Shown piece after piece: positions 3,699 through 16,934 of a DNA stretch of 20,073 nt. The stretch's first letter is position 1, and every line of letters starts with the position of its first letter. Origin of the DNA: a virus. The position numbers were made by a program, and so were the translations under genes. The notes under the pieces were generated by a model, which made no database searches, was not told the origin of the DNA, and saw only the letters and a program-made list of their open reading frames with translations. The stretch covers positions 1-20,073 of IMG/VR virus record IMGVR_UViG_3300046820_000882. The stretch is one strand, 5' to 3'.

Positions 3699-3905
3699 TT
3701 ATTTATGTTTGCTTGAACGAAGCATATCAGCATGGAAAGCTGACTGTCTGTGTTCAATTAATGGTTCATCAACCACTCTTTGTTTCTTCACACTTTGCTG
3801 TCTAGCCATGGATCTTATATCTTCCATGGTACGAACAGGTTCACCATCAGGATCCCTTGTTTTGGGATCCCCTTGTACGATGATGTTGGCTGCTGAAATG
3901 CCCAT
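3699..3905 (-). CDS. Small hypothetical phage protein (68 aa)
   Basis: This 68-aa reading frame fills exactly the space between two supported genes. Its ATG overlaps the preceding stop (TAATG at 3903-3907), it has an AGGAA site, and its stop lies just before the next late promoter. The protein is hydrophilic and basic in the second half (MARQQSVKKQRVVDEPLIEH), with no membrane segment or recognisable domain. Fit, overlap and ribosome binding site argue that it is real. I do not recognise the family. The codons for DPKTRDPDG form a GGGATCC inverted repeat, which looks incidental. Confidence 0.6.
   Translation of the reverse strand: MGISAANIIVQGDPKTRDPDGEPVRTMEDIRSMARQQSVKKQRVVDEPLIEHRQSAFHADMLRSSKHK
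3700..3707 (-). promoter_or_regulatory. Probable T4-type late promoter (CATAAATA)
   Basis: On the minus strand the octamer CATAAATA lies 33 nt before the ATG at 3667, one mismatch from the T4 late consensus TATAAATA. Spacing leaves room for the strong Shine-Dalgarno site in the leader. It would drive the structural protein and the fibre gene independently of the cargo block upstream. Confidence 0.55.
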
Positions 3906-4678
3906 TATTTTCCTGCTATCAATCTATGAACAGATACGAGGTTGTCGTAAGATTGATGAATCTCGTCGTGAACATTCTTTCTATGCTCTGGCTTCAGTCT
4001 CTCAGTAGCATTGAGAACAGTCTTTGCCATGCTCTGAGATACTGGATACTTCTTACCATTCTTGAATGTTACGTGAAATGGCTTTTGATCTGAATCAGCT
4101 GCTTTCTTTAGCTGAACATGAATATGTTGGTCTGCTTCCATACCATTATCACTCTCATGCTCTTCGTGCTCTTCAGAATCATCATCGTCACTGCGAATAG
4201 ACATCTTCTTAGGACGACCACGAGCCTCGTCAAGACCAACCTCTTCTTTAACTTCGCTCTGCATATAATCTGATACGGTAGTAATGTAGTCAGCAGCTAA
4301 AGTAATCTTGCTCTGTACCCACTCAGCCATATTAGTGTTATCTTTTAACATATCATGGACACGTTGAGAGTTAGCTATGATAGAGCGTAACTGGCTCTTG
4401 GCCATGTCACCTTCATAGTCATACTCTCTAGCATCACTAGCTTCAGTGAAGCTAAGTGGTTTGGCTTCTGAACCTTTAACCTGAGCATTCTTTGCAGTAG
4501 CTGCAATTTGCTTTAGACGTTTCTTGTTCTCGATCTCATAGCCCAGTGCTTCACTAATACCATCGTAAGGATTACCACCCATAACTCTACGATGAGCTTT
4601 GTAGCGCTTGCCACTGCTGCTTAATTTGTAATCGGAAGAGGCTACAACCCCTTCCTGTAATTGTTTAAGTGTTTTCAT
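3905..4678 (-). CDS. Putative internal head protein with AT-hook-like motif
   Basis: This 257-aa protein opens with MKTLKQLQE followed by Gly10, which fits a capsid-targeting peptide with an L-x-E cleavage site (compare T4 MKTYQEFIAE). Residues 85-142 (EYDYEGDMAKSQLRSI into WVQSKITLAADYITTV) are a conserved helical segment I know from internal or unknown proteins of marine T4-like phages. Residues 153-158 (RGRPKK) form an AT-hook-like DNA-binding patch. An acidic stretch (DDDDSEEHEEHE, 164-175) and a conserved basic C-terminal domain (about 195-255) follow. No catalytic motif is visible. It overlaps the previous gene as TAATG. A role in condensing or accompanying capsid DNA is inferred from the leader, the DNA-binding patch and the cluster. 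Confidence 0.65.
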   Translation of the reverse strand: MKTLKQLQEGVVASSDYKLSSSGKRYKAHRRVMGGNPYDGISEALGYEIENKKRLKQIAATAKNAQVKGSEAKPLSFTEASDAREYDYEGDMAKSQLRSIIANSQRVHDMLKDNTNMAEWVQSKITLAADYITTVSDYMQSEVKEEVGLDEARGRPKKMSIRSDDDDSEEHEEHESDNGMEADQHIHVQLKKAADSDQKPFHVTFKNGKKYPVSQSMAKTVLNATERLKPEHRKNVHDEIHQSYDNLVSVHRLIAGK

Positions 4679-7431
4679 TAGTAATCCGTCCCTACCATAC
4701 CTTGTCCTTGATAGCTAGTAGCTAGCGCTGGTTTCTTTTGCGCAGCTGCTTTTCTTGCCTTCTCTTCTGGAGACTCCACTGGCTGAGGAGCTGGTACTGA
4801 TGAAGCCTGTCTAGTTACAGGAGCATTACCACTACCACTTGGGTTAGCTGCTAATTGTTTGTTCTTGTAATCATAGTTGCCAACAGTCTTGTCGCCTTGT
4901 GGATATGCTTGATCCTGCTTGCTTACTACTCTGGCAGCAGGAGCATTGCCTGCCATATTTTGCTTAGCAGCTGCATCAGCTGATGGTGTACCAGCTACTG
5001 GTTTACCACCTGCCTCTTGTCTAGCCTGAGCAATAGTCTTACCACCACCACCTGGCATTGGAGCAGCTACACCAGCTGCACCTGCTGCTTGTTCTCTTGC
5101 ACGGGCATTAGATTTGAAACTAGATATTCTCTGATTTGGTTGTGTGTAGCCAGCTTCCTTGGCACCATCAGAAGTACTTACTACTCTTGCTGCTGGAGCA
5201 TTGGCTGCAATACCTTGCTTAGCATCTCTAGGAGTATTGCTATATGACATCTGTGATGTACCAATAGAACCACCTGAAATAGCATCCATAGCATCGGATT
5301 TAGGAGCTGCTGGTTTTGGAGTAGCTGCTGCTTGTGTCGTAGAAGACCCACCAGTAAGTGCATCAGCACCTGCTACATTCGTTGCTTGCCCTTGAATACC
5401 AACAGCATTTCTAACACCTGGCTCAAATGTTTTTGCTGGTTCAGCAGCAGAAGCAGCTGGCTTAGACGTAGAAGATGCTTGATTAGTATCTTGCTTCTGA
5501 TCCTCATCGCTACTCACATTAAAGCCCTTACCTTCTGCATTACGTTGGCGCATCTTCGCTAATGCTTTTTCTGTTCTAGCATCATTCTCTGCTCTATCTG
5601 TTGCAGCATCTTCACGCATAGTTTTCTTACGCTTGGAGTGCATATGCATTTCGGAAACAAGAATCTCTAGGTCGCTAGTAGGTACGTACTTCTCAATACC
5701 GTGCTCAAACATAACATCATACCAAGCAATATAACCATCGTGATCTGGTTCAGCGTGCTGAGTAGTAACTGTACGGCCTTCACCAAACGATTCACTCTTT
5801 ACGTGAATAGCACATTGATGCTCGTAGCTGTTGCCTGGAGTGTCTTTATTCTCTTTAACAGATGTTTTCTTCTTGTTGTAGAGACCAAGCTTCATTTTCA
5901 TCTTGGAAGACATCTCTTGAATATTATCTTCTTCAACATCCATTGATTCTTTTTGTGTTGATTGAGATTTCTTACCAGACTTCTTACTATCAACAGGAGT
6001 GTATAATGGCTTACCTACACCTCTGTAACCTTCATCAGGAGAAGGAACTTCATTGGTACCTGGACGAGGAGCATCATCAACATACTTACCATTTCTCATG
6101 GTACCTTCTTCAACCTTCTTTGGTTTAATAACACCACGAGCAACTAATACATCACCATGAGTGATACGTTTTGGATCTCCGTAGTGAGCAGCAAGATCTT
6201 GCTCTTTATCAGTACGAGGAGTTGAGCTTTCTTTCTTCTTCATTACTTCCATGATATCAGCAACTAGATCACGTGATACGCCAAATGTCTTATTAACGTA
6301 AGCTTCTTTTGCAGTTACCTTACCGTTAACATCACCCTTGCCTCTGATCTTATTGACGAAATCACCAATCGAAGCATATGAACGATTTTCTGTATCTGGA
6401 CCACCCATAACACCTTTTTGACGAACATATGTTCTACCATCTGCATCTGTTCTAGTATTACCCTTACCGTATTTGTCATCAAGTTCTTTGTCAGCAGGAC
6501 GACCAGTGCTGTAGTCTTTATCTGAAGCTGCTGGCTTTTCTGTCTTTGATGCTTCTTTTGGTGCTTCTGGCTCTTCTTGTTTACCTTGTGGAGTAGTAGC
6601 TGACTTTAGACCGACTGGAGTCTTATCTTCATCATCATTACCCATCATGTTATCTAAATTCTTTCTTGCTCGATCCAAGTTCTTCTGTATAGTGTCAGCT
6701 GGGAGAATGGATGCTCTCTTTTGCATTGTAGGAACTTTAGATCCTCCGGAAAACACGTTATCTGTTGGATCTGCTTTTGGAGTCTCTACTGCTTTTGGAG
6801 TATCTACTGCTTTTGTTTCTGTTTCTTTACCCTGAGCTTTTGCTAAAGATGAAGCATCAGTAGCTGCTGGCTTTGGAGCATCATTCGATGTAGGAGCAGC
6901 AGCTGGAGTTTCTGGTTTCTTAACCGTAGTAGCAGCTGCAGCAGCAGGTGCTTTAAGTGCTTTAGAAGTACCAGGTTTTGATATCTGAGCTGCATCTGTC
7001 TTATTTTTACCAGGAGCTGGATCATATGAACCAGGACCTGCTCTACCAGAAGGTTGGTTGACACCAGTAGCCTGTTGCTTAGCAACCATCTCTCTATTCT
7101 TTGCAATTACAGGATTCAATGTCCTTGGATTGCCCCATGTACCTGGTTTAGCTGCGTCACCAGAATCACTAGCTTTTGGAGCTGGTACTGTAGCTGCACT
7201 TGCTTTGCTAGAGTCACCTTTAAAGAAGTCCTTGATAGCTTGACCTCTTTCTTGAGATTTAGCAGCAGGAGATCCAGGAGCTGGTTGCTTAGCAGCACTA
7301 GAAGCAGCAGGTTTAGGAGCAGCAGGTTTAGGAGCTACTGCAGGCTGTGTTTTATTTTTAGCCTGAGCTTGAGCAGCTCCTCCACTACCACCTTCCATGA
7401 TGTTCTTGATTGATTCATAAAGTGACTTCAT
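4678..7431 (-). CDS. Large low-complexity putative internal head protein
   Basis: This 917-aa protein begins MKSLYESIKNIME followed by Gly14, consistent with a capsid-targeting leader and an I-x-E cleavage site. Most of it (15-300, 610-917) is disordered and rich in Ala, Pro, Lys, Ser and Gln. Two more ordered islands stand out: about 305-440, and about 500-605 with MSSKMKMKLGLYNKKK, CAIHVKSESFGEG and YDVMFEHGIEKYVPTSDLEI. The second island resembles a domain seen in cyanophage and marine phage unknowns. A motif NAPxxRxxS occurs three times (744-752, 829-837, 869-877). The start has an AAGGA site 9 nt upstream. No enzymatic motif is seen. A precursor cut into several internal peptides is possible but unproven. 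Confidence 0.65.
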   Translation of the reverse strand: MKSLYESIKNIMEGGSGGAAQAQAKNKTQPAVAPKPAAPKPAASSAAKQPAPGSPAAKSQERGQAIKDFFKGDSSKASAATVPAPKASDSGDAAKPGTWGNPRTLNPVIAKNREMVAKQQATGVNQPSGRAGPGSYDPAPGKNKTDAAQISKPGTSKALKAPAAAAATTVKKPETPAAAPTSNDAPKPAATDASSLAKAQGKETETKAVDTPKAVETPKADPTDNVFSGGSKVPTMQKRASILPADTIQKNLDRARKNLDNMMGNDDEDKTPVGLKSATTPQGKQEEPEAPKEASKTEKPAASDKDYSTGRPADKELDDKYGKGNTRTDADGRTYVRQKGVMGGPDTENRSYASIGDFVNKIRGKGDVNGKVTAKEAYVNKTFGVSRDLVADIMEVMKKKESSTPRTDKEQDLAAHYGDPKRITHGDVLVARGVIKPKKVEEGTMRNGKYVDDAPRPGTNEVPSPDEGYRGVGKPLYTPVDSKKSGKKSQSTQKESMDVEEDNIQEMSSKMKMKLGLYNKKKTSVKENKDTPGNSYEHQCAIHVKSESFGEGRTVTTQHAEPDHDGYIAWYDVMFEHGIEKYVPTSDLEILVSEMHMHSKRKKTMREDAATDRAENDARTEKALAKMRQRNAEGKGFNVSSDEDQKQDTNQASSTSKPAASAAEPAKTFEPGVRNAVGIQGQATNVAGADALTGGSSTTQAAATPKPAAPKSDAMDAISGGSIGTSQMSYSNTPRDAKQGIAANAPAARVVSTSDGAKEAGYTQPNQRISSFKSNARAREQAAGAAGVAAPMPGGGGKTIAQARQEAGGKPVAGTPSADAAAKQNMAGNAPAARVVSKQDQAYPQGDKTVGNYDYKNKQLAANPSGSGNAPVTRQASSVPAPQPVESPEEKARKAAAQKKPALATSYQGQGMVGTDY

Positions 7432-7454
7432 TTTAGTTCCTTTTTTATTTAATG

Positions 7455-8030
7455 TTAGTCGGTATCGTAGATTTTAAGTTTTCTTTGCGCTTTTAGATTT
7501 CTGGATAAGATAAACTTAGAGCTATCGATATCACTATCCTTTGGTCCAGCCTTTGCAGATGTAGGAGGAGTTTGTAGTCTCTTCATTATTTCTGGTGTTA
7601 TCTTATCAACTGGTCCTGAGTCAGACTGCTCATATGATTTAATATCACCCAAGTGACCATCAAGGTATCCAAGTTTATCACTGATACCCATACGGTCACC
7701 AAGCATGCGAATCTTTTCAACAATATGACTAGCTTCTTTCGAGTCATCACTTGTTGATCTTTCTGCAGCAACAGTGTGCTTTTTGATACCAAATAACTGA
7801 TCATGAAGAATAGCCATCTTCTCTGCTAAATCAGGGTTGGTATTACGCGGTAGGCTTACAAACAACTTTTGTGCCTTTGGGCACATCTCAAAATTCTTTG
7901 TACGATAGGTACCAGCAGCGATTTGATCCGCTTGGTCTTTTTCTATCTTACTACGCTGCTCAAACAAACCTTTTCTAGATTTGCGAACAATATCTCTAAT
8001 TCTGTTTTCTAGTGTAACGTACTTTTTCAT
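7455..8030 (-). CDS. Conserved phage protein, possible internal head protein
   Basis: I chose the ATG at 8030, giving 191 aa (MKKYVTLENRIRDIVRKSRK). It forms an ATGA overlap with the stop of the Dps gene, while the longer frame to 8063 would lie inside that gene. The basic amphipathic N-terminus ends in LFEQ at residues 22-25, which could be an L-x-E cleavage site of an extended capsid-targeting leader, though the match is weaker than in its neighbours. The rest is hydrophilic and helical, with CPKAQKLFVSLPRNTNPDLA and a C-terminal basic segment (RNLKAQRKLKIYD). I have seen similar LENRIRDIVR openings in marine phage unknowns but know no function. Confidence 0.6.
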   Translation of the reverse strand: MKKYVTLENRIRDIVRKSRKGLFEQRSKIEKDQADQIAAGTYRTKNFEMCPKAQKLFVSLPRNTNPDLAEKMAILHDQLFGIKKHTVAAERSTSDDSKEASHIVEKIRMLGDRMGISDKLGYLDGHLGDIKSYEQSDSGPVDKITPEIMKRLQTPPTSAKAGPKDSDIDSSKFILSRNLKAQRKLKIYDTD

Positions 8031-8473
8031 TGTCTTCTCTTTAGTAGAGAGTTTAACATCCATGCATGCTTCTTATGGGCATCATATCTATCTTGTATGA
8101 AATTAGATAGTCCAATCTCATCAAATTCTTCTGCCAACTCATATGCTTCTCTTAAAGAAGCTAGAACTATTTGATTATCACCTAACAAAGTATTGAACAT
8201 CTCTCCAGCTGATGGAGCACCGGTGCTATCTGCAATACTTGATAATTCTTTGAATCTTGAAAATGATCCTGGAGCATATTCTCCAAGAGCTCTAATCTCT
8301 TCTGCAATCTTATCAATTGCTCCGTACACTTCTTCATACAGATTACCAAGGAATTCATGGTACTGAGGAAAGTCGGGACCTTCTACATTCCAATGAAACT
8401 GATGTGCTTTCAAATAGAAAGCAAAGCTATCAGCAAGTACAACCTTCATCTTTTCTGTTAATTGTTCTCTCAT
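8027..8473 (-). CDS. dps: Dps-like ferritin (DNA-protection / ferroxidase protein)
   Basis: This 148-aa protein is close to the usual Dps length. The signature FYLKAHQFHWNVEGPDFPQY followed by HEFLGNLYEEVYGAIDKIAEE matches the Dps family. His27, His39, Asp54 and Glu58 have the same spacing (12, 15, 4) as the inter-subunit ferroxidase residues of Listeria Dps (31, 43, 58, 62), so the iron-oxidising site looks intact. The family forms hollow dodecamers that oxidise Fe(II) with peroxide, and some members bind DNA. The N-terminus is short and lacks the Lys-rich tail of E. coli Dps. Its opening (MREQLTE) is only weakly like the capsid-targeting leaders around it. It overlaps both neighbours (TAATG upstream, ATGA downstream). 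It may protect phage DNA from Fenton chemistry in the host or in the capsid. Confidence 0.9.
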   Translation of the reverse strand: MREQLTEKMKVVLADSFAFYLKAHQFHWNVEGPDFPQYHEFLGNLYEEVYGAIDKIAEEIRALGEYAPGSFSRFKELSSIADSTGAPSAGEMFNTLLGDNQIVLASLREAYELAEEFDEIGLSNFIQDRYDAHKKHAWMLNSLLKRRQ

Positions 8474-8898
8474 TATATGTCTCTATCTCTAATAGGTCCA
8501 CCAGCAATCCATGCATCACAAGTTCTGTCTCCAGCACATTTAAAGTGGAGTATGTTGCAGTATCCTAAGTTTGCCTTTTTAATAGTAGTATCAAAATGAT
8601 CTACCTCATCACTCTCGCCTTTGCCATGGTTTCTTCCGTTCGTAATACAATCAATCATATCTGATGTGACTACAAAGGCTGCGCAGTTACTACATTTGGA
8701 TGCCTTGGCTTCATCAACACTAACCATCCACATATTGGCTTTGTCTTTCCAAAAGTCTGTAGAAGGCTCATATGGATTCAAAGGACCGTATCCATACTCA
8801 TCTATAGCGTGCTGTCTATTTTCTAAATTGACAGATAAATCATATGTTGATTTTGGGCACGTATTTTTTGCCTCGAATAAGAATGTTGAGTATTTCAT
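8473..8898 (-). CDS. Cys-rich HiPIP-like protein with capsid-targeting-like leader
   Basis: This 141-aa protein begins MKYSTFLFE followed by Ala10, a good match to a capsid-targeting peptide with an L-x-E site. Seven cysteines follow (14, 69, 72, 84, 114, 121, 127). The arrangement C69-x2-C72AAF, C114 and C127-D-A-W recalls high-potential iron-sulfur proteins, where CxxCxF, a third Cys and C-x-x-W near the end bind a 4Fe-4S cluster (x13 in Chromatium HiPIP between the last two, x12 here). Conserved GYCNILHFKCAGDRTCDAW is familiar from many marine phage unknowns. It overlaps both neighbours as TAATG. An iron-sulfur or zinc site is equally consistent with the Cys pattern, so the cofactor is inference. 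Confidence 0.65.
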   Translation of the reverse strand: MKYSTFLFEAKNTCPKSTYDLSVNLENRQHAIDEYGYGPLNPYEPSTDFWKDKANMWMVSVDEAKASKCSNCAAFVVTSDMIDCITNGRNHGKGESDEVDHFDTTIKKANLGYCNILHFKCAGDRTCDAWIAGGPIRDRDI

Positions 8899-9167
8899 TA
8901 CCAGGCCTTACATGACCAATATCTTGGTGTTGTTTTATCAGAAGCAGTGTCGCAATTGTGACGAGCTCTGAAACTCTTACGACGTGCAGGAATATTCTTT
9001 TTGATGGTCATATTCTTATCTCCGAAGTTTACCTTCTGAGCCTTACCATCTCCATCAGGATCAACAAATACTTTAGACTTCTTAACATCGCCAGCCATTG
9101 GCTTATTAAGAGTTACTTTCTTACCTTGATACTCGGCTTCTGTGATGAACTCTAAAAAACTTAGCAT
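8898..9167 (-). CDS. Small conserved phage domain (possible DUF6321) with capsid-targeting-like leader
   Basis: This 89-aa protein starts MLSFLEFITE followed by Ala11, one of the closest matches in the window to the T4 leader MKTYQEFIAE with cleavage after I-x-E. The rest is a compact basic domain: GKKVTLNKPMAGDVKKSKVF, KVNFGDKNMTIKKNIPARRK, SFRARHNC and a terminal TPRYWSCKAW. I recognise the RARHNC...RYWSCKAW pattern from a widespread family in tailed phages (I believe DUF6321), sometimes found attached to head-related proteins. Two conserved cysteines and an adjacent His could bind metal. If the leader is cleaved, the mature protein is about 79 residues. Function is unknown. The start overlaps the preceding gene by 7 nt. 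Confidence 0.75.
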   Translation of the reverse strand: MLSFLEFITEAEYQGKKVTLNKPMAGDVKKSKVFVDPDGDGKAQKVNFGDKNMTIKKNIPARRKSFRARHNCDTASDKTTPRYWSCKAW

Positions 9168-11308
9168 TGATTGTTCGCCTTTCTTTTAGCTCTCATCATT
9201 CTAACAAAAGCTTCAACAGCTTCACCTGGAGTATCTTTTTTATATTTATTTGTTAGTTTATCTGTGCCTTCGTCACCAGCGCCACCTTCTTCCATTACAG
9301 AAGGATGCAACTCAAACCCACCTTGTATCTTCATACCTAAATCAGCTGCAGTATAAACTCCACTATAACCTGATGCACGATCAACTACGAAGCTTTCATC
9401 AATAGATTCTTTAGTAACACCAGATGCTTGCTTCTTTGTCTTTACTCTATCTTGATAAGACTTCTCATCAAAAGGTCTAAAGTTACTAGCAACATCGGAT
9501 AATGCTTTTCTTGCTGTAGCACCTGCACTTACAATTTTATCAGCAACAGATGGTTCTGTTGGTTGAGTAGCTTCTGCATATAAATGAGCATACTTCTTCT
9601 CATGCTCTTCACGCTGCTTCTTCTGCTTAGCAATTAGATTTAGTAAACGGTCAGCACCTTTGTCAGCATCGTACCCATGTTTCTTTAAGCTGTCTTTAAA
9701 CTTATCACGTGGTGACTTTGGTTGTACTGCTTCTTGAGCATCAATAAAGTTTTGTTTTGTTGGAGCACCCTCTGAACCAGGCTTTCTCATCTTCTCACCA
9801 GATCCACGAGCAATACGCTTACGCTTGGCGTGAATGTTATCCCATAGTCCACCTTCTGCTAGATGAGAGTTGACTCTCTGCATTGCAAACTGATGAGCAG
9901 TAGCGTTGTTTCTACCATCATAGTCAGCTAGACCTTGTTCAAAAACATTTTTAACTTCTTCGAAAGTAACTCCATACTTCTCTGCCTTCTTAGCAAGAGC
10001 AGCATTGGCCTTTTCTTGTAGATATGCTCCATGATCCCACTCTCTATGAGATACGATGGTTGTAGCTGGGCTCGGAGTCTTTGTCTTGTATGTTTGAGGA
10101 ATAATAATAGAAGAGGATGTATTAGCAGTAGAAGTCTGCTTAGCTGGCATTGAACCTACTTTGGTGTAAGTTGCTATCTGTGACTTACCTTTGTTCTTTT
10201 TATTAAAGTCACCAATCTTCTGATTAACAGTCTTTTTAATATCACCCAGAGCATTTGCTTTATCTTGATCAGCCTTCTGTTGATCTTTTGGATTTAAAGA
10301 CTGCTTTGCTTTTGCTATTGAGATCTTTCCTAACTCAGTCTTTTGTTTAGACTGGATAACAGCTTGCTTTTGAAGTTCTTTTTGATTCTTAGATAGCTCT
10401 GGTGCTTTGGAACTTGTTGTTGATTTTGAATTATCAATCTTACCAACTTTAGATAGTTTATTAGCAGCTAAAGCAGATCCAGCTAGAGTAGCTCCAAGAG
10501 CTCCTCTGGGAGTTGACATAGTATGAGCTAAAGCACCAGCTGCCAACCCTGCCTTAGCTATATTACCAGCTACACGGAAAGGAGCACCTGCTATTGACTT
10601 CAAGTTTTGGCCAATAGTGGCTTCATACATTGAGAAGAAGTTGTTCAGATCTTCAGCTGATATGTGCTCACCTAAAAGGTTGCTGTATATTGGAAGATAT
10701 TCTGAATTGATATTTCTAGCAGCACTGTATACACCTTTTGTAGATCTACCAGTCTGAACCGCATACAGTCTCTTCTGCTCACCTTTTCTAACAGTTGGCA
10801 TCATTCTACGAGCCATATTTCTGATCTGAGCTTCACGACCCTTCAAACGGTTATCAATATTAATCTTCTCAGCAGCAGATAACGAATTATATTTTACACC
10901 GCGAGCACCAGCGATTCTTCTTCTGAGATTCTGCTTAGCCATTCTCATAGCTCTCTGCTTCAACTTATCATTTGATGCGAGTCTAGTTCTGAGAATCTTA
11001 CGCTTCATCTTCATCTTAGGCATTCTACGTCTTAGAGCCATAGCGCGCTTACGACGCTGAATGAGATTTACAGTGCGTTCAATTAAAGTTTGTTCTGTTT
11101 GAAACTTCGTTGGTTTTTCTTCTGGATTAACGACAATCTTGTCAAGTCTACTACCAGTCAACGAAGCTAATCCCTGCTGAGCACGCAATTGTTGCTGCTG
11201 CTGTTCTATTTGCTCAGGAGTAAGAGGAGCTGGTTGCGCAGGCGCAACTCCAGCTGGAGGTGGGGGTGGTGGCAAGGCTTGCTCGCCGAATTCTTTAAAT
11301 GTAATCAT
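9161..11308 (-). CDS. Large basic putative internal head protein
   Basis: This 715-aa protein begins MITFKEFGE followed by Gln10, similar to a capsid-targeting leader but with F-G-E in place of (L/I)-x-E. A run of six prolines and a Gln-rich stretch come next. Residues 85-182 are extremely basic and helical (RRKRAMALRRRMPKMKMKRK, then NSLSAAEKINIDNRL and RRMMPTVRKGEQKRL), a pattern known from cyanophage and marine phage unknowns. Residues 240-285 are Ala/Gly-rich and hydrophobic. A Lys-rich linker leads to residues about 425-530, with YGVTFEEVKNVFEQGL, MQRVNSHL and GLWDNIHAKRKRIARGSGEK, again common in marine phage proteins. No catalytic motif is seen. It has its own consensus late promoter. 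A DNA-binding, co-packaged protein is the best guess. Confidence 0.7.
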   Translation of the reverse strand: MITFKEFGEQALPPPPPPAGVAPAQPAPLTPEQIEQQQQQLRAQQGLASLTGSRLDKIVVNPEEKPTKFQTEQTLIERTVNLIQRRKRAMALRRRMPKMKMKRKILRTRLASNDKLKQRAMRMAKQNLRRRIAGARGVKYNSLSAAEKINIDNRLKGREAQIRNMARRMMPTVRKGEQKRLYAVQTGRSTKGVYSAARNINSEYLPIYSNLLGEHISAEDLNNFFSMYEATIGQNLKSIAGAPFRVAGNIAKAGLAAGALAHTMSTPRGALGATLAGSALAANKLSKVGKIDNSKSTTSSKAPELSKNQKELQKQAVIQSKQKTELGKISIAKAKQSLNPKDQQKADQDKANALGDIKKTVNQKIGDFNKKNKGKSQIATYTKVGSMPAKQTSTANTSSSIIIPQTYKTKTPSPATTIVSHREWDHGAYLQEKANAALAKKAEKYGVTFEEVKNVFEQGLADYDGRNNATAHQFAMQRVNSHLAEGGLWDNIHAKRKRIARGSGEKMRKPGSEGAPTKQNFIDAQEAVQPKSPRDKFKDSLKKHGYDADKGADRLLNLIAKQKKQREEHEKKYAHLYAEATQPTEPSVADKIVSAGATARKALSDVASNFRPFDEKSYQDRVKTKKQASGVTKESIDESFVVDRASGYSGVYTAADLGMKIQGGFELHPSVMEEGGAGDEGTDKLTNKYKKDTPGEAVEAFVRMMRAKRKANNQC

Positions 11309-11352
11309 GTTTTCTTCCGCAGGTTTACCTAGGCCTTACTGCCGGGACTTAC

Positions 11353-11360
11353 TATTTATA
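11353..11360 (-). promoter_or_regulatory. T4-type late promoter (TATAAATA)
   Basis: A perfect TATAAATA octamer on the minus strand lies in the 54-nt gap between the FkbM methyltransferase stop and the ATG at 11308, about 45 nt before that ATG. In T4 this element alone directs sigma-gp55/clamp-dependent late transcription. It would start a second late transcript covering the 715-aa protein and the genes down to at least 3905. The leader also contains a GC-rich stretch (CCCGGCAG...CTGCGG) able to form only a bulged 6-bp stem. Confidence 0.75.
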
Positions 11361-11362
11361 AA

Positions 11363-11998
11363 TTATTTTACTGCAAACAGCTTGTCGGCATGGCCAAAAT
11401 GTCCATCAATCCTTTTATAGCCGAGTGGAGATAATAACATATTTATCTCTTCGTTTACTGTCTCAAGTGTAATTACCGGTAGAAACTTTGCTATAGTTTC
11501 CATAGCTCCTGCAATTACATTTGGTTCATATCCTTCGCAATCCAGACTAATATAGTCACATTTATCAAGTGCCAGCTGATCAATAGTAAATGTTGGTATA
11601 AATGTATCACCTATATCAGATACTTTATGTCCACCTACATTGGTCATTGATACTCTCTGCATACGCACGAGCTTATTAGTCTCACCAAGCGCTGCATTCA
11701 TTTTATAGATATTGTCTCTTTGACAATTGTAAGATAGGCAGTGGAAGTTTAGAGGATCTGGTTCGAATGTGTATACTCGTCTAAACATATCAGAAAGGAG
11801 TCTTGGATACATTCCACAATTACCACCAGCCTGAACAACCACGTCAAAGTTTTTGACATGATCAAGTATACCCCTCTTCAATGGTCCCCAGTCTGATTTA
11901 GGACCATCAAAAGCACCATTATCTTCTGTTACCCATAACCAACTAGAGACTTCCTCTACACTATTATTTCTAATGGATACTAATTCACTATAATCCAC
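11363..11998 (-). CDS. FkbM-family SAM-dependent methyltransferase
   Basis: This 211-aa protein has a Rossmann-type SAM-binding motif VVVQAGGNCGMYPRLLSDMF (about 54-73), an acidic strand end YTFEPDPLNFHCL, and the later DYISLDCEGYEPNVIAGA with LPVITLETVNEE. That set is typical of FkbM-type O-methyltransferases, which marine phages often carry and whose substrates are mostly sugars or other small molecules. The start is GTG (11998-11996), overlapping the TAG of the preceding gene, with GGGAG 8 nt upstream. No internal ATG would preserve the fold. Unlike most neighbours it has no capsid-targeting-like leader, so it probably acts in the infected cell, possibly on glycan or a modified nucleotide. 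Substrate is unknown. Confidence 0.85.
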   Translation of the reverse strand: MDYSELVSIRNNSVEEVSSWLWVTEDNGAFDGPKSDWGPLKRGILDHVKNFDVVVQAGGNCGMYPRLLSDMFRRVYTFEPDPLNFHCLSYNCQRDNIYKMNAALGETNKLVRMQRVSMTNVGGHKVSDIGDTFIPTFTIDQLALDKCDYISLDCEGYEPNVIAGAMETIAKFLPVITLETVNEEINMLLSPLGYKRIDGHFGHADKLFAVK

Positions 11999-12606
11999 TA
12001 GTCAACTCCCATTCCAGATCTAACATCTTTATATATTTCTCTTGAATGTGATTCATTCTTTTTAATCTTGCTTGGAAGACCAGCTTTGAATTTACCGTAG
12101 TTGCCACTAGATGCATGGTTACGCATATCGGTACCACTTACACCTGCTTTACGCTCACCAGTGTTTGCTACGGATATAGAATCAAAATGATACTCACCGT
12201 GTGGCTTACCCTTCACTCCATTATACTTGTGGAGTAAAGTCTTATACTCTTCTGCTCTATCACTACCACCAGCGATAACTAAATGCTTAGCACCAGTCTT
12301 AGCAATCTCTGCTGCATGATGCATGATAGTGGGGTGTGCTTTAGAAGCTGTAGAGATGGTTGTATTATCAAGATGACCAAAAGCACGTTGTAGATGCTTT
12401 TGCTTTTGTTCTGGAGATAGTGGGTTCTTCTTTGCATCATGAGATCCACTTGCTACTACGTGAAGGTGAGCGTCATGCTTGGTTGCAAGATCGTGAGCTG
12501 CGCTTACATTCTCTTCATGGCCACTAGTAATAGGGTTCATTCTACCAAATAGTAGAACAGCGGACTTAGCCTTTTCTTCTAATAGAAAACTTCCGAATGA
12601 TTTCAT
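11998..12606 (-). CDS. Cytidylyltransferase-like nucleotidyltransferase (NMNAT-like) with capsid-targeting-like leader
   Basis: This 202-aa protein opens MKSFGSFLLE followed by Glu11, then enters an HxGH-superfamily nucleotidyltransferase. LLFGRMNPITSGHEENV (18-34) corresponds to the GRFNPxHxGH signature with T27-S-G-H30. AGGSDR (112-117) and VSGTDMRNH (156-164) correspond to the later substrate loop and the ISSTxxR-like nucleotide-binding motif. The family includes NMN adenylyltransferases, pantetheine-phosphate adenylyltransferases and glycerol- or choline-phosphate cytidylyltransferases. The overall pattern looks nearest to phage NMNAT-like proteins, but the substrate cannot be fixed. The first His of HxGH is Thr here, as in some relatives. 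It overlaps the HAD phosphatase gene by ATGA, suggesting coupled synthesis and perhaps a shared pathway. Confidence 0.8.
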   Translation of the reverse strand: MKSFGSFLLEEKAKSAVLLFGRMNPITSGHEENVSAAHDLATKHDAHLHVVASGSHDAKKNPLSPEQKQKHLQRAFGHLDNTTISTASKAHPTIMHHAAEIAKTGAKHLVIAGGSDRAEEYKTLLHKYNGVKGKPHGEYHFDSISVANTGERKAGVSGTDMRNHASSGNYGKFKAGLPSKIKKNESHSREIYKDVRSGMGVD

Positions 12607-13214
12607 TTGCTTGTCGTTTTCGATATTCCATCACCATCAACATGGTGTGCATGGAATGTTGTATTTGGATGGTGATCCTTCAATCCCAAAAAGGAGTGTA
12701 GGTTTGTTTTACTATCATCGTACATATGAACATCGTTATACTTATGCTTGGCAACATAGCCATGAATCACTTTAGCTTTCTTATCAGCTGGTAAACTATC
12801 TTGATTAATGTTGCCAGCTCTGATCACATGGATGTTTTTCATATTGATACCATGCTTCTTGAATGTGTGTAAGAATTTATTCTTATCATCGAAGTTAGCA
12901 CGAGCAGTATTAAAGATGACATGGTTGTGAGGGTTAGCAGATACTCTCTTTAGGTGGTTAACCATGTTAGGCATCGGCTTTGATTCTTTATTAAACTTCT
13001 CAGCATTTCTAAATTCACCAAAGTCATAGCTATGGCCTTTTGGTAACTTGTGATTATTAAACTCTTGATTACTAAGAGTCTTAACTACTTTACCATGTGG
13101 ATCTTTAACATGGATCTGAGCTGTGGTATGCATTAGTGTATCATCAATATCAAACACATGAAGAGACTTTTTCTGTGTAACACCTTCTGTGATGAATTCT
13201 TTAAAGCTAATCAT
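12603..13214 (-). CDS. HAD-superfamily phosphatase with capsid-targeting-like leader
   Basis: This 203-aa protein begins MISFKEFITE followed by Gly11, an excellent match to a capsid-targeting leader cut after I-x-E. The HAD core follows directly. Motif I is FDIDDTLM (nucleophile Asp22, acid/base Asp24, Thr26), motif II is FNTAR (Thr103), motif III is a Lys around 145-148, and motif IV is MYDDSKTN (Asp166, Asp167). All catalytic positions appear present. Phage proteins of this type resemble the 3'-phosphatase half of T4 polynucleotide kinase, but there is no kinase P-loop here, so the substrate (nucleic-acid end, nucleotide or other phosphate ester) is open. Its gene is tightly coupled to a nucleotidyltransferase and a ligase-like gene, which makes a nucleic-acid end-processing role attractive. 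Confidence 0.8.
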   Translation of the reverse strand: MISFKEFITEGVTQKKSLHVFDIDDTLMHTTAQIHVKDPHGKVVKTLSNQEFNNHKLPKGHSYDFGEFRNAEKFNKESKPMPNMVNHLKRVSANPHNHVIFNTARANFDDKNKFLHTFKKHGINMKNIHVIRAGNINQDSLPADKKAKVIHGYVAKHKYNDVHMYDDSKTNLHSFLGLKDHHPNTTFHAHHVDGDGISKTTSK

Positions 13215-14404
13215 TATTGTCTCGCTGCAAAGTTTTGTCTACTGAATTCTGCTCTATCAACAACCTTTGTTGGTCTATTATTTACCACAGCAACATATCC
13301 CTCTGGTTTAGAAGGCTGGCCATTGATTGTGGTTGTAAACTTAGGACTAACCGCCATAGCATGATTCTGGATATCTTTAGCCTGCTGTAGGTGATGATGA
13401 ATTTGAAATACTTTATCGATAGTATCAGAGTGTGCTCTAACTGTACCAAGCTGGGTATTCATTGCCTGAGTCTTACGATCAATAGCTCCTTGGGTCTTTA
13501 CCTTGGCTATTTCTTTTTGATGTTGACTCTGTACATGATCATACAAATCAGTGGCATTAGGAGTAGTGCCTTCTCTAACTGTCTTATTAATATAGGTCTT
13601 GATATGATCTAAGTGAGGTTCCACCTTCTTATAATCTTCTGGCTTCATACTTCTATGAAGCTCATCTGCCTGAGCCATGTGTTCTTGAAAGTCTGCTTGA
13701 CGAGCAGGATTATAATCTGCCTTAGTTGAATCAAATTTATTATTAATTACATGCACATCTGGATGTTCATTAAAGTGAGAAAGATCTGGATCGTAATCTG
13801 CTTTCATTGATTCAAAGTTACCACCCTTATATCCTGTATGAACTGCAATACCAAATTGCGACTGAGCTACTTTCTGACCTTCTTCTGAATTAGCAGGTGC
13901 ATGATACTCGACTAGATTTGGTTTAAAGCTGTGGACTTTACCATTAGTGGTTACATCACCATGTAGGTTTGTTTCAGAGTTGATACCAGAATGCATGACA
14001 TCTCCCTGAAATATTCCTGTCTTAGGAGTTACCTTTGGAAGATGGAATAATGCAAGATTCAACTTATTGACAAGACCTGGAGCATGGCCATGATTCTTTT
14101 GAACATCGTCATAATCATAATTCAACTTAGGCTCTTTATTGAAAGCTGATTTAGTAGCAACAAAGAACTGACCTGTAGCTGGATGATGACCAAATACAAT
14201 AGAAGGACTTCCATCCATCTTCTCATATAAAGCTGCACCACCCTTTTGACCTGTCAGTGTTTTGTGTACTGCGTTAAGTGTATTCTTGGCATGCTGATAT
14301 CCTTCAGCACCAGCATTAAGTACATGGTCTTCGGCATGCTCAAGATGAGTCAGCTTTTCTTCATTGGCAGCTGATTCTCTTAACAAAGTAAATATGTGAC
14401 GCAT
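13214..14404 (-). CDS. Ligase-like nucleotidyltransferase with KxDGS motif (DUF6267-type)
   Basis: This 396-aa protein begins MRHIFTLLRE followed by Ser11, fitting a capsid-targeting leader with an L-x-E site. HLEHAEDHVLNAGAEG (20-35) and YEKMDGSPSIVFG (60-72) match a phage family I recall as DUF6267. K62-M-D-G-S66 is motif I of covalent nucleotidyltransferases (DNA/RNA ligases, capping enzymes), where Lys takes the AMP or GMP. FFVATKSAFNKEPKLNYD and GIFQGDVMHSG (about 154-164) are further family motifs. The second half is helical, His- and Gln-rich, without an obvious OB-fold signature. Overlap with the HAD gene is TAATG. Actual ligase activity is not established for this family to my knowledge. 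Confidence 0.8.
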   Translation of the reverse strand: MRHIFTLLRESAANEEKLTHLEHAEDHVLNAGAEGYQHAKNTLNAVHKTLTGQKGGAALYEKMDGSPSIVFGHHPATGQFFVATKSAFNKEPKLNYDYDDVQKNHGHAPGLVNKLNLALFHLPKVTPKTGIFQGDVMHSGINSETNLHGDVTTNGKVHSFKPNLVEYHAPANSEEGQKVAQSQFGIAVHTGYKGGNFESMKADYDPDLSHFNEHPDVHVINNKFDSTKADYNPARQADFQEHMAQADELHRSMKPEDYKKVEPHLDHIKTYINKTVREGTTPNATDLYDHVQSQHQKEIAKVKTQGAIDRKTQAMNTQLGTVRAHSDTIDKVFQIHHHLQQAKDIQNHAMAVSPKFTTTINGQPSKPEGYVAVVNNRPTKVVDRAEFSRQNFAARQ

Positions 14405-14405
14405 T

Positions 14406-15425
14406 TTAATGTCCTAGTGTTTTCTTTAGCTTTTGTGCACCCTCATCTGTACCGATGTTAGTATGCGACTGATCTAATTTTGTGAGAGAGAATTGCACAG
14501 TACGCTTGTCAGGATTATCAGTCTTCTGACGAGTACGGAAACGACCTTCACCATGCATTACTGGTAGTCCAAGTTTATGTGTATCACTATGCTCACTTGC
14601 ACCAGCTCTGTAAGTACCATGTGTATCTACATGAGCAACATCGACACCATGATCACGCATATAAGCATGAGCCGGTGATGCACTTGTGTGATCTGAATAG
14701 AATCCACCTTTGTTAGTTGTTCCAGATGGTTCAGTTTCATTTAGATGCTGTAATAGTGATTTTGTCTTACCATTTACAGTGACAGTAGCCTTCTCAACAT
14801 GGGCAGCATACTCAGGTCGTTTTGCACGTGCCTTATCATCGATATGCCACTGCCCTGTTTCAGGATGGCGAGAAAGAGTTATCTGACCAAAAGCTGTACT
14901 CTTGATATCAGACTTATGCTCGCCTTGTATTGCTCCCTTGGCCCCCTCTGTACCACCGATTCTCTTTTCTTTGATACCTCGTTTATCAATTAGATGGAAG
15001 TCATTATCGCCAGTAAAACCAGCACCACTACCTCTCATCAATCCATGCTTATTGAGGTGCTGAGCTAACTCACCTTCTCGTTCAAAGCCTTTATTCTTTC
15101 GGGCAGAAGATGATGGCTTTAGTAACTTGCTAGTTGGTATTACATGGTCGTGATCAGATCCCTGTGCTCGAACAACGGCATGGTGTACATCTTTACCAGA
15201 AGCACTCTGCTTCACCTGATGTCCAACAATCGTTACCTTCTCACCAGCTTTCAATGGTCCGTGCTCACTTGCCATCTCATGACTACCAACAGAATGCTTA
15301 GCACCACCTGGCAAATAAGGTGTTATGTATTGTTTAGTATGACGAGCAGCACTCATACCTGAAGCCTTCATGGTAGATGCCTGCATAGTCGCTTGTTCGA
15401 TAATATATCTTTTAAATGTTTTCAT
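14406..15425 (-). CDS. Putative PD-(D/E)XK-type nuclease with capsid-targeting-like leader
   Basis: This 339-aa protein begins MKTFKRYIIE followed by Gln11, very close to T4 MKTYQEFIAE. The N-terminal part (about 55-105) looks like a small beta domain (GEKVTIVGHQVKQSASGKDV, VIPTSKLLKP). Residues 113-185 carry a nuclease-like pattern: GFEREGELAQHLNKHG with Glu115/Glu117, GFTGDNDFHLID with Asp140/Asp142, GEHKSD with Glu169-x-Lys171, and AFGQITL with Gln181. This D...ExK...Q order is characteristic of PD-(D/E)XK endonucleases. The C-terminal half is His-rich and conserved-looking (HAYMRDHGVDVAHVDTHGTY, PVMHGEGRFRTRQ). The assignment is by motif only and could be wrong. The gene lies 4 nt downstream of the preceding stop. 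Confidence 0.6.
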   Translation of the reverse strand: MKTFKRYIIEQATMQASTMKASGMSAARHTKQYITPYLPGGAKHSVGSHEMASEHGPLKAGEKVTIVGHQVKQSASGKDVHHAVVRAQGSDHDHVIPTSKLLKPSSSARKNKGFEREGELAQHLNKHGLMRGSGAGFTGDNDFHLIDKRGIKEKRIGGTEGAKGAIQGEHKSDIKSTAFGQITLSRHPETGQWHIDDKARAKRPEYAAHVEKATVTVNGKTKSLLQHLNETEPSGTTNKGGFYSDHTSASPAHAYMRDHGVDVAHVDTHGTYRAGASEHSDTHKLGLPVMHGEGRFRTRQKTDNPDKRTVQFSLTKLDQSHTNIGTDEGAQKLKKTLGH

Positions 15426-15429
15426 ATTA

Positions 15430-15852
15430 TCACCAGTCGTTATCGTTTGGGTTGCGTTTTACAATATCAGGATTGACTTTCTTCCTAGCAGCATTGGCAG
15501 CATCAATCTCTTTACGAGCATTAGGATATTTGTTAAACTTTGGATCAACCTCAATATCATCATCCCATTCAGGACTCTTGCTCTTTGTTGTGGTTACAGT
15601 TCTAGAACTCTTGTCCGGTGACTCAATACGACTAACCTCGGTACGTGTACCTGGATCTTTCCCAGCATCCTCACCGCGCTTCTTTTTAGCAAGATATTCA
15701 GCACGACCTGGATTATCAACGCTTTTAGAAATAGTTACACCACCGCCTGACTCTTCGTCATCGGTGGTGGTTTTTGAACTTGAAAAAGAGGATGAGCGAG
15801 ATCTTTCCCACTCATGAAGAGATATAAAACTTGAGAATTTACGAACAGCCAT
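15430..15852 (-). CDS. Small hydrophilic putative head protein, first gene of the cargo block
   Basis: I chose the ATG at 15852 (140 aa). It has AGGAG 6 nt upstream and lies just downstream of a consensus late promoter, while the longer frame (to 15891) would begin upstream of that promoter and inside the ClpP gene. The N-terminus MAVRKFSSFISLHE resembles an extended capsid-targeting leader with L-H-E before Trp. The remainder is disordered and rich in Ser, Asp, Lys and Thr (SRSSSFSSSKTTTDDEES), with a conserved-looking C-terminus (EVDPKFNKYPNARKEIDAAN). No domain is recognised. Its start codon lies in the 3' arm of a hairpin with the Shine-Dalgarno site in the loop, so translation should depend on which promoter made the transcript. 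Confidence 0.65.
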   Translation of the reverse strand: MAVRKFSSFISLHEWERSRSSSFSSSKTTTDDEESGGGVTISKSVDNPGRAEYLAKKKRGEDAGKDPGTRTEVSRIESPDKSSRTVTTTKSKSPEWDDDIEVDPKFNKYPNARKEIDAANAARKKVNPDIVKRNPNDNDW

Positions 15853-15883: not shown

Positions 15884-16441
15884 TCAGCCAAATATTGCGT
15901 CAGCTACTCCCAAATCTACACATTCCTGCGCAGTTAACCAAACATCTGAAGGAGGAAGTAGCTTACGCTTAATCACTTTCTCATCCATAGAGCAGCTCTC
16001 TTTTACAATATCCAGCATACGCTGTTTAATGTACTTGGTCTCTTTCTCATATGCTTTGGCGTCATGCTCTTTGCCTTCATAATACGTAGAAAACTGATGG
16101 CACATCACACTTGTGTTTTTAGTAACTCTACGACGGCCTTTGGCACCAGTAATGAATATCAAGAATGCAGCACTCATTAGTGAGCCTACACCGATCGTTG
16201 TAACAGGTATCTTACTAGCCCTGATCATATCAATCAAACCAAATGCACTATAGAGATCACCGCCAGGACTGTTAATTACAAGAGTGAGCTCTTTACGCTT
16301 ACCCTCACAATTCTCAGCCATAATCCATCTAATACAATCACCTATGTTATCATCGTTAATTTCACCAGAGAGATAGAACGTGCCACTCTCATATAGTACC
16401 ATGTCGATACTATCAAAAACATTTGAAGCTTCGCTAGTCAT
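15884..16441 (-). CDS. ClpP-like serine protease
   Basis: I chose the ATG at 16441 (185 aa, MTSEASNVFDSIDMVLYESG), because AGGA lies 7 nt upstream and it begins after the preceding gene's stop. The longer frame to 16483 would overlap that gene. The ClpP/crotonase fold is clear: FYLSGEINDDN, LVINSPGGDLYSAFGLIDMI, GVGSLMSAAFLI, GAKGRRR and VMCHQFS. Aligning on GAKG places the triad at Ser90, His115 and Asp166 (SDVWLTAQECVDLGVAD), all present, so it should be active. Length is slightly below bacterial ClpP (about 195). Phage ClpP-like proteins act as head-maturation proteases in HK97-type phages or as host-type peptidases. Here the gene is directly upstream of the putative capsid-cargo block. 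Whether it needs a host ClpX/ClpA partner is unknown. Confidence 0.88.
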   Translation of the reverse strand: MTSEASNVFDSIDMVLYESGTFYLSGEINDDNIGDCIRWIMAENCEGKRKELTLVINSPGGDLYSAFGLIDMIRASKIPVTTIGVGSLMSAAFLIFITGAKGRRRVTKNTSVMCHQFSTYYEGKEHDAKAYEKETKYIKQRMLDIVKESCSMDEKVIKRKLLPPSDVWLTAQECVDLGVADAIFG

Positions 16442-16451
16442 AAAATTCCTA

Positions 16452-16934
16452 TCAAGGAGGGCAGTTAATATTCTTAGCGGCATCAGTCACAACTTTGTCA
16501 CTGCTGCCTTGTTTACGGAGATATGAAGCTTGTAGGTCATACGCTTCACGCTCTTTCTTGTACCAAACATCACAGGTTTTAGTACCACCCTGTCTTACAT
16601 ACTGAACATGATGCACCATCTCGTGGAAAAGAATAGATCTCCAAACAGGATGCTTAGCATCATAGTCTTCGTCAAAATAAATTGCACCGTCTTTATATAT
16701 GGCGGTTACTGTATCACACTTAGATGCACCTTCGCAGTATAATGCTTGCAGATCTTTCTCGTTAAGCGAATACATACGTGGCATAGGAACAGCACCTTCA
16801 TATTTCATCATCTTTCTAGCTTCTTCCAGCAACGACATCATCGCGGGGGAAGGAGTAATAGTATGCTGCGTCTTAGGAGCAGCAGCTGTTAGTGTTGATA
16901 TGCATAATAAAATAGTAACTAAAAGGCGTGTCAT
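16452..16934 (-). CDS. Exported HExxH zinc metalloprotease-like protein (possible DUF6647)
   Basis: I chose the ATG at 16934 (160 aa): a GGGAA-type site precedes it and a sigma70-like promoter lies between it and the end of the longer frame. Residues 1-19 (MTRLLVTILLCISTLTAAAP) form a typical signal peptide with cleavage near TAAA. The mature protein has HEMVHHVQY (His104, Glu105, His108), the zinc-binding HExxH motif, and a downstream acidic stretch KEREAYDLQASYL that can supply the third ligand. Cysteines at 67, 73, 121 and 158 suggest disulfides in the periplasm. The pattern resembles a family I recall as DUF6647. It may act on periplasmic or envelope proteins during infection. It is separate from the neighbouring SprT-like gene, which has no signal peptide. 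Confidence 0.8.
   Translation of the reverse strand: MTRLLVTILLCISTLTAAAPKTQHTITPSPAMMSLLEEARKMMKYEGAVPMPRMYSLNEKDLQALYCEGASKCDTVTAIYKDGAIYFDEDYDAKHPVWRSILFHEMVHHVQYVRQGGTKTCDVWYKKEREAYDLQASYLRKQGSSDKVVTDAAKNINCPP

Follow-up and report, generated by a model that had tools for sequence, protein, structure and literature searches.

Do proteins with unrelated bodies, encoded side by side in a virus genome, share a short N-terminal peptide that directs them into the phage head? The question is raised by a 20,073-base IMG/VR virus record (hereafter the window, meaning this whole stretch), whose main genes lie on the minus strand. A block at positions 3905–15852 encodes 13 proteins, and is flanked by a ClpP-like protease gene and by tail-fibre-like and lysis genes; helicase genes lie on one side of it, and the lysis genes on the other. 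In a DNA-level search against phage records, the window showed similarity in the helicase/primase stretch only. An earlier note on this DNA had proposed that nine or more of the 13 proteins begin with a leader resembling the capsid-targeting sequence (CTS) of T4, and all the N-termini that it quoted are indeed found where it had placed them.

Mutagenesis of the T4 CTS has assigned residues 4 and 7 to targeting, and residues 8 and 10 to processing (PMC9026906). I used the pattern M-x(1,2)-[FYIL]-x2-[FYIL]-[ILVFM]-x-E, whose fixed positions are these T4 determinants (4, 7, 8 and 10), and which was drawn up with the leaders already seen. It fits six of the 13 block proteins, five in the ten-residue form and one, starting at 8898, a residue shorter; these six carry the large hydrophobic or aromatic residue at positions 4 and 7, the aliphatic residue at 8 and the glutamate at 10. 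The matching CTS-like leaders are listed below, with a slash at the predicted cut.

15396–15425, minus strand: MKTFKRYIIE/Q, on a 339-aa protein (body 14406–15425)
14375–14404, minus strand: MRHIFTLLRE/S, on a DUF6267 protein (body 13214–14404)
13185–13214, minus strand: MISFKEFITE/G, on a HAD-superfamily phosphatase-like protein (body 12603–13214)
12577–12606, minus strand: MKSFGSFLLE/E, on a cytidylyltransferase/NMNAT-like protein of 202 aa (body 11998–12606)
9138–9167, minus strand: MLSFLEFITE/A, on an 89-aa protein (body 8898–9167)
8872–8898, minus strand: MKYSTFLFE/A, on a 141-aa Cys-rich protein (body 8473–8898)

Four further proteins carry looser candidate leaders, which fall outside the pattern and were left out of the solid count.

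15811–15852, minus strand: MAVRKFSSFISLHE/W, on a 140-aa protein (body 15430–15852)
11282–11308, minus strand: MITFKEFGE/Q, on a 715-aa protein (body 9161–11308)
7393–7431, minus strand: MKSLYESIKNIME/G, on a 917-aa Pro/Ala-rich protein (body 4678–7431)
4652–4678, minus strand: MKTLKQLQE/G, on a 257-aa protein (body 3905–4678)

The first of these has a counterpart at the equivalent place in the relative L064, starting MSIKKYSEYITLHE/Q. The leader of the 715-aa protein lacks a hydrophobic residue at position 8, and an identical start is found in L001. Relatives of the 917-aa protein start MKKIYESAKEILSE and MKNIYETIKGIMADS, so the glutamate of its leader is not always kept, and the counterpart of the 257-aa protein in the relative G002 starts MKTLKQIIE/G. 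The assignment of these four as capsid-targeting sequences is uncertain, and "nine or more" was thus an overcount, of which six proteins stand as solid. Two of the eight leaders quoted as examples in the earlier note, MKTLKQLQE and MKSLYESIKNIME, fail the T4-determinant pattern, and two of the looser candidates (those at 11308 and 15852) were missing from its list.

When residues 2–18 of the same proteins were shuffled, the mean number of matches was 0.04, and six were reached in none of 20,000 trials. The background of the pattern is 4 of 347 non-block genes in the close relatives G001 and G002, and 1 of 520 genes in non-T4 contigs (those with neither gp20 nor gp21). Other patterns were less useful: the strict profile suggested in the earlier note found one gene in the cyanophage S-SCSM1 (P = 0.15), too few for testing, and a loose pattern matched ∼8% of all genes of that phage and had no discriminating value. 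The leader is too short for a secretion or membrane signal, ends in glutamate and fits the T4 CTS, and such a signal was ruled out.

Several neighbours bear no leader.

11363–11998, minus strand: FkbM methyltransferase (PF05050, E 3.5e-10), an internal negative
8027–8473, minus strand: Dps/ferritin-like protein (PF00210, E 3.5e-26), an internal negative
15884–16483, minus strand: ClpP-like (S14) protease (phrog_94 head maturation protease, E 2.4e-27)

The Dps/ferritin-like family has a leader in 0/15 homologues. The ClpP-like protease gene lies immediately upstream of the block, and its lineage has gp21 as well. Of the proteins that the earlier note named as untagged, FkbM and the ClpP-like protein bear no leader; the start of UvsX lies outside the window, and in relatives UvsX begins MSFLKSLIKE and fits the pattern, presumably by chance.

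Non-conservation of the leaders in homologues had been named as a finding that would speak against them. Relatives were gathered from IMG/VR with three block proteins as queries, the larger ones being read whole, and conservation alignments were made from whole proteins, with the motif playing no part in selection. In the 339-aa family (12 homologues), M1, K2, F4 and E10 are each present in at least 90% of sequences; in the DUF6267 family, E10 is invariant across 17 homologues; and in the HAD family, F4 and E10 are present in at least 90% of the alignment, most homologues keeping the leader. Body identity falls to 22–24% in the DUF6267 and 339-aa families. Counterparts of the 89-aa protein start MLSFLEYIAE/A (G002) and MFTFKQYILE/A (G009). 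The leaders are thus retained in the three aligned families while the bodies differ. From 64 distinct peptides of six families, chosen by motif, the consensus M-K-[ST]-F-x-x-[FY]-[LI]-x-E/[ASE] was obtained. The leader codons differ synonymously (F as TTT or TTC, E as GAA or GAG, L/I with many codons), from which it follows that the constraint acts on the peptide, not on the DNA; a translation-start DNA element is ruled out by the same variation. In an AlphaFold model of the DUF6267 protein (mean pLDDT 89), residues 1–16 have pLDDT below 50, as would be expected of a detachable tail. In some homologues position 10 is D or has no acid; the HAD homologue at L027:10001, for instance, has the leader MKTFKQHLDD. 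In T4, D at this position blocks cutting and still allows packaging (PMC9026906).

I then considered what the tagged bodies may be. The DUF6267 protein (PF19782, E 6.6e-91) has KxDG and PEGFVA motifs, as in covalent nucleotidyltransferases, which correspond to motifs I (KxDG) and IV (EGxV) of ATP-dependent polynucleotide ligases, and its Foldseek matches to DNA ligases are weak (best E 0.058); on its motifs, it may be a ligase-like nucleotidyltransferase. A literature search for DUF6267 found no paper. The HAD protein matches phrog_415 polynucleotide kinase (E 8e-8), and gave no match by tblastn against GenBank phages, for which reason its homologues were drawn from IMG/VR. The cytidylyltransferase/NMNAT-like protein matches phrog_3041 (E 4e-44). 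The 339-aa protein resembles HhaI endonuclease weakly by Foldseek (E 0.011), and its family shows a D...ExK pattern, with D142 invariant and GE(H/V/T)K in 9/12 homologues, making a PD-(D/E)xK nuclease possible. Sequence searches of the PDB with these four proteins gave no convincing match. The family of the 141-aa protein (8473–8898) has conserved cysteines and is present in many unrelated phages, where it is untagged outside the block-bearing ones.

The same body can occur with and without the tag. DUF6267 bears the leader in the window and in Stenotrophomonas phage DLP6 (MMKFTQFLAE), whereas the S-SZBM1, S-RIM2 and P-HM1 versions are untagged and start straight at the domain. The cytidylyltransferase carries a tag in this phage, S-RIM2 (MKKFSAFLTE), S-SCSM1, S-SZBM1 and S-CREM2; its homologues in 121Q, K64-1, Cassandra and P-HM1 have none. 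For the 141-aa family, a leader-like start was found in L064, L065 and L072 only, where the gene order matches the block of the window; the other homologues start differently, and on their contigs no T4 portal or gp21 is detectable. No gp21 was found on the L064 and L065 fragments either, so for this family the link to the leader comes from gene order, plus gp21 in L072. Conversely, several different bodies encoded in a gene run of L063 have one leader in common, MISFKQFxxE, and this further bears out the view of unrelated bodies under one conserved leader. From these comparisons of sequence, the tag is a swappable module that varies independently of the body.

The L063 run (L063:3313–8375) lies near tail-tube and head-closure genes, and most of its genes start MISFKQF(L/I)xE, MISFKEFISE or MKFKDFLKE, a denser tagged array than that of the window. 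Several of its proteins have YRG/WRG and SRSxSFI-type motifs and are ADP-ribosyltransferase (ART)-like, with no Pfam confirmation of ART; the run also encodes a weak GNAT domain on one ART-like protein, a kinase-like protein and a P-loop start. In G002 (118629–123511), two genes are inserted between those for the cytidylyltransferase and FkbM, compared to the window: a fibre-like one of 1509 aa and a short one resembling it.

Processing of a T4-type leader would call for a gp21-type protease, and the lack of one in the genome was also to count against the idea. A search of the 20 kb window for gp21 found nothing, and it is absent from the 63 kb record of the closest relative as well; both records are fragments. 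Six relatives (G002, G003, G004, G006, G007 and G009) encode gp21 (S77, PF03420), among them the 162 kb G002, in which the block has the same order as in the window, and the idea is therefore not refuted on this count. Proteins matching the profile of the 257-aa protein adjoin gp21 at G003:25062–27317 and G007:97573–98403, and the 257-aa protein may be a prohead-core component.

Published virion proteomes of three cyanophages bear on whether tagged proteins reach the head. That of S-CREM2 holds 52 proteins (PMC10665884, Table 3), including, on annotated starts, these five tagged ones.

gp6, SAM hydrolase: MKDFDSFLEE, in the virion proteome
gp13, hypothetical protein: MKDLHSFLTE, in the virion proteome
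gp14, kinase (APH-like), non-ATG start: MKRFDAFLTE, in the virion proteome
gp136, hypothetical protein: MQTFSMFFSE, in the virion proteome
gp154, cytidylyltransferase: MKNFSSFLTE, in the virion proteome

Tagged genes make up 5/52 of the detected against 2/167 of the undetected genes (gp37 and the 55-aa gp175; Fisher P = 0.009), where gp136 and gp154 had been seen before the pattern was fixed, and gp6, gp13 and gp14 were found afterwards. In S-SCSM1 an NMNAT with leader MKSFLQFLKE, and in S-SZBM1 a cytidylyltransferase with leader MRFRQFIIE, were detected in virions. Pooling the three phages gives 7/130 detected versus 6/589 others (P = 0.004), with the virion set of S-SCSM1 taken as the 48 genes flagged in the record (the paper's own figure is 45). 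Small tagged proteins of 105–165 aa (MKTFKQFMSE in S-SCSM1; MKSFKSFLSE and MKTFKQYITE in S-SZBM1) were undetected in virions, as were one further S-SZBM1 match, probably due to chance, and the untagged DUF6267 protein of S-SZBM1. All three phages have an annotated prohead protease that was detected by mass spectrometry (MS).

The adjacent S-CREM2 genes gp12–gp15 (OR473000; L181:7704–13331) encode a Cas9-like nuclease, the kinase and two small proteins with leader or leader-like starts, all detected. Two of them lie outside the pattern and the test: the Cas9-like gp12, where LRFASFMAE/A stands near residue 17, and gp15, which starts MNFSEFNE/S. The S-SCSM1 protein gp93 (L173:31627–31836), a 69-aa virion protein, has a leader-like C-terminus, RTFKEFLEYIE.

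Taken together, the leaders described here are very probably T4-type capsid-targeting sequences, with six solid cases, as judged from sequence. I consider it likely, with good confidence, that they act as those of the T4 internal proteins do, the cargo staying in the head and being injected with the DNA. During prohead assembly, leader residues 4 and 7 would dock the protein onto the scaffold core; a gp21-type protease would cleave behind the (L/I)-x-E, whose glutamate is residue 9 or 10, and the leader would depart; and the mature protein would remain in the head amid the DNA and enter the host together with it. The carriers in this phage would be the ligase-like DUF6267 protein, the HAD phosphatase-like and cytidylyltransferase/NMNAT-like proteins, the possible PD-(D/E)xK nuclease and two small proteins. 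For this phage, I infer packaging, cleavage after the glutamate, injection and the enzyme activities. My guess is that the cargo might be directed, during the first minutes, at damage that host defences inflict on nucleic acids or NAD. The capsid-cargo proposal of the earlier note is thus supported, for a strict set of six, by conservation in homologues, gp21 in relatives and enrichment in the relatives' virion proteomes. Since tagged enzymes occur in the virions of three related phages, the tag probably marks enzymes injected with the DNA.

Other explanations have to be weighed against this one. The leader could be an amphipathic peptide with a general docking function, by which late enzymes are brought together around another phage structure in the cell, detection of tagged homologues in virions then being carry-over. 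MS of CsCl-purified phage can indeed pick up carried-over abundant proteins; the available part of the S-CREM2 paper raises this for such enzymes, and proposes no targeting signal (PMC10665884), and the untagged, non-structural RegA of S-SCSM1 is also flagged as a virion protein. However, the tag fits all four T4 positions, the (L/I)-x-E cut site included, and the tag is over-represented in the detected set, although most non-structural genes of these phages go undetected; this explanation is unlikely. I regard it as slightly less probable still that the tag recruits assembly factors (scaffold or core components) to the prohead core, rather than injected cargo. The position of the 257-aa protein's profile relatives beside gp21 would suit this, as would the influence of T4 IPIII on head assembly (PMC9026906), but the strict set is mostly of known enzyme families, family members are untagged in other phages, as fits accessory cargo, and tagged homologues are still present in mature virions by MS.

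That the adjoining ClpP-like protease processes the leaders instead of gp21 is suggested by its location and its match to head-maturation protease families; it is very improbable, given the gp21 consensus at the end of the leader (PMC9026906) and the annotated prohead protease, detected by MS, of all three cyanophages with tagged virion proteins. Least credible of all is chance, or a composition bias at start codons (M-K-S/T, A-rich codons): the pattern was written post hoc and ∼1% of other genes fit it, but the shuffling result, the conservation of F4 and E10 and the single match in non-T4 contigs leave it next to no room.

Returning to capsid targeting with injection of the cargo, several groups have puzzled over how cyanophage virion enzymes enter the particle and whether they are contaminants, and a tag that follows the T4 rule offers a mechanism. 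Ten residues would help to tell cargo from contamination, and would let capsid cargo be predicted from genome sequence. Hundreds of T4-like phage records contain the cytidylyltransferase and DUF6267; delivery with the DNA is suggested for the former, and for the latter in some phages, which would alter the reading of such "auxiliary metabolic genes". I lean, by a narrow margin, towards a broader proposal, that the swappable tag defines across aquatic T4-like phages a wide class of injected enzymes: a preloaded repair and counter-defence kit, with members predictable from their first ten residues. It would include ligase-like, phosphatase, NMNAT-like, SAM hydrolase, kinase, Cas9-like and ADP-ribosyltransferase-like proteins.

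The mechanism itself is known from T4; what appears new, relative to the literature searched, is its application to an enzyme set by aquatic T4-like phages, together with the connection to enzymes already detected in virions. The capsid-targeting literature that was found does not treat cyanophage cargo, and a T4 review suggests in general terms that the CTS may allow T4-like phages to package varied proteins (PMC9026906). The virion enzymes of S-SCSM1, S-SZBM1 and S-CREM2 include a homologous cytidylyltransferase with a like leader, found by MS, and the available portions of the corresponding papers mention neither a targeting leader nor a route into the head. In the giant phages phiKZ and SPN3US, a gp21-related protease similarly cleaves N-terminal head propeptides behind an E, but those of SPN3US are mostly longer than 100 residues with A/S-x-E cut sites, unlike the short leaders here (PMC5694885). 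The ADP-ribosyltransferase Alt of T4, and the polyvalent and MuF-fused effectors, are also head-packaged enzymes for immediate use after injection; these are recognised from a fusion to head proteins or from the surrounding genes, whereas here a short detachable peptide is involved (PMC5512222, PMC9503650). The closest likeness is to the T4 internal proteins: a ten-residue N-terminal peptide in which positions 4 and 7 are aromatic or large and hydrophobic, 8 is L/I and 10 is E, on unrelated bodies, in a T4-like phage, with a gp21 protease (here in relatives). For T4, its own leader by itself has been shown to package a foreign protein (PMC9026906). In T4 the tag is found on Alt and three small internal proteins, whereas the tag here is borne mainly by families of nucleotide and nucleic-acid enzymes.
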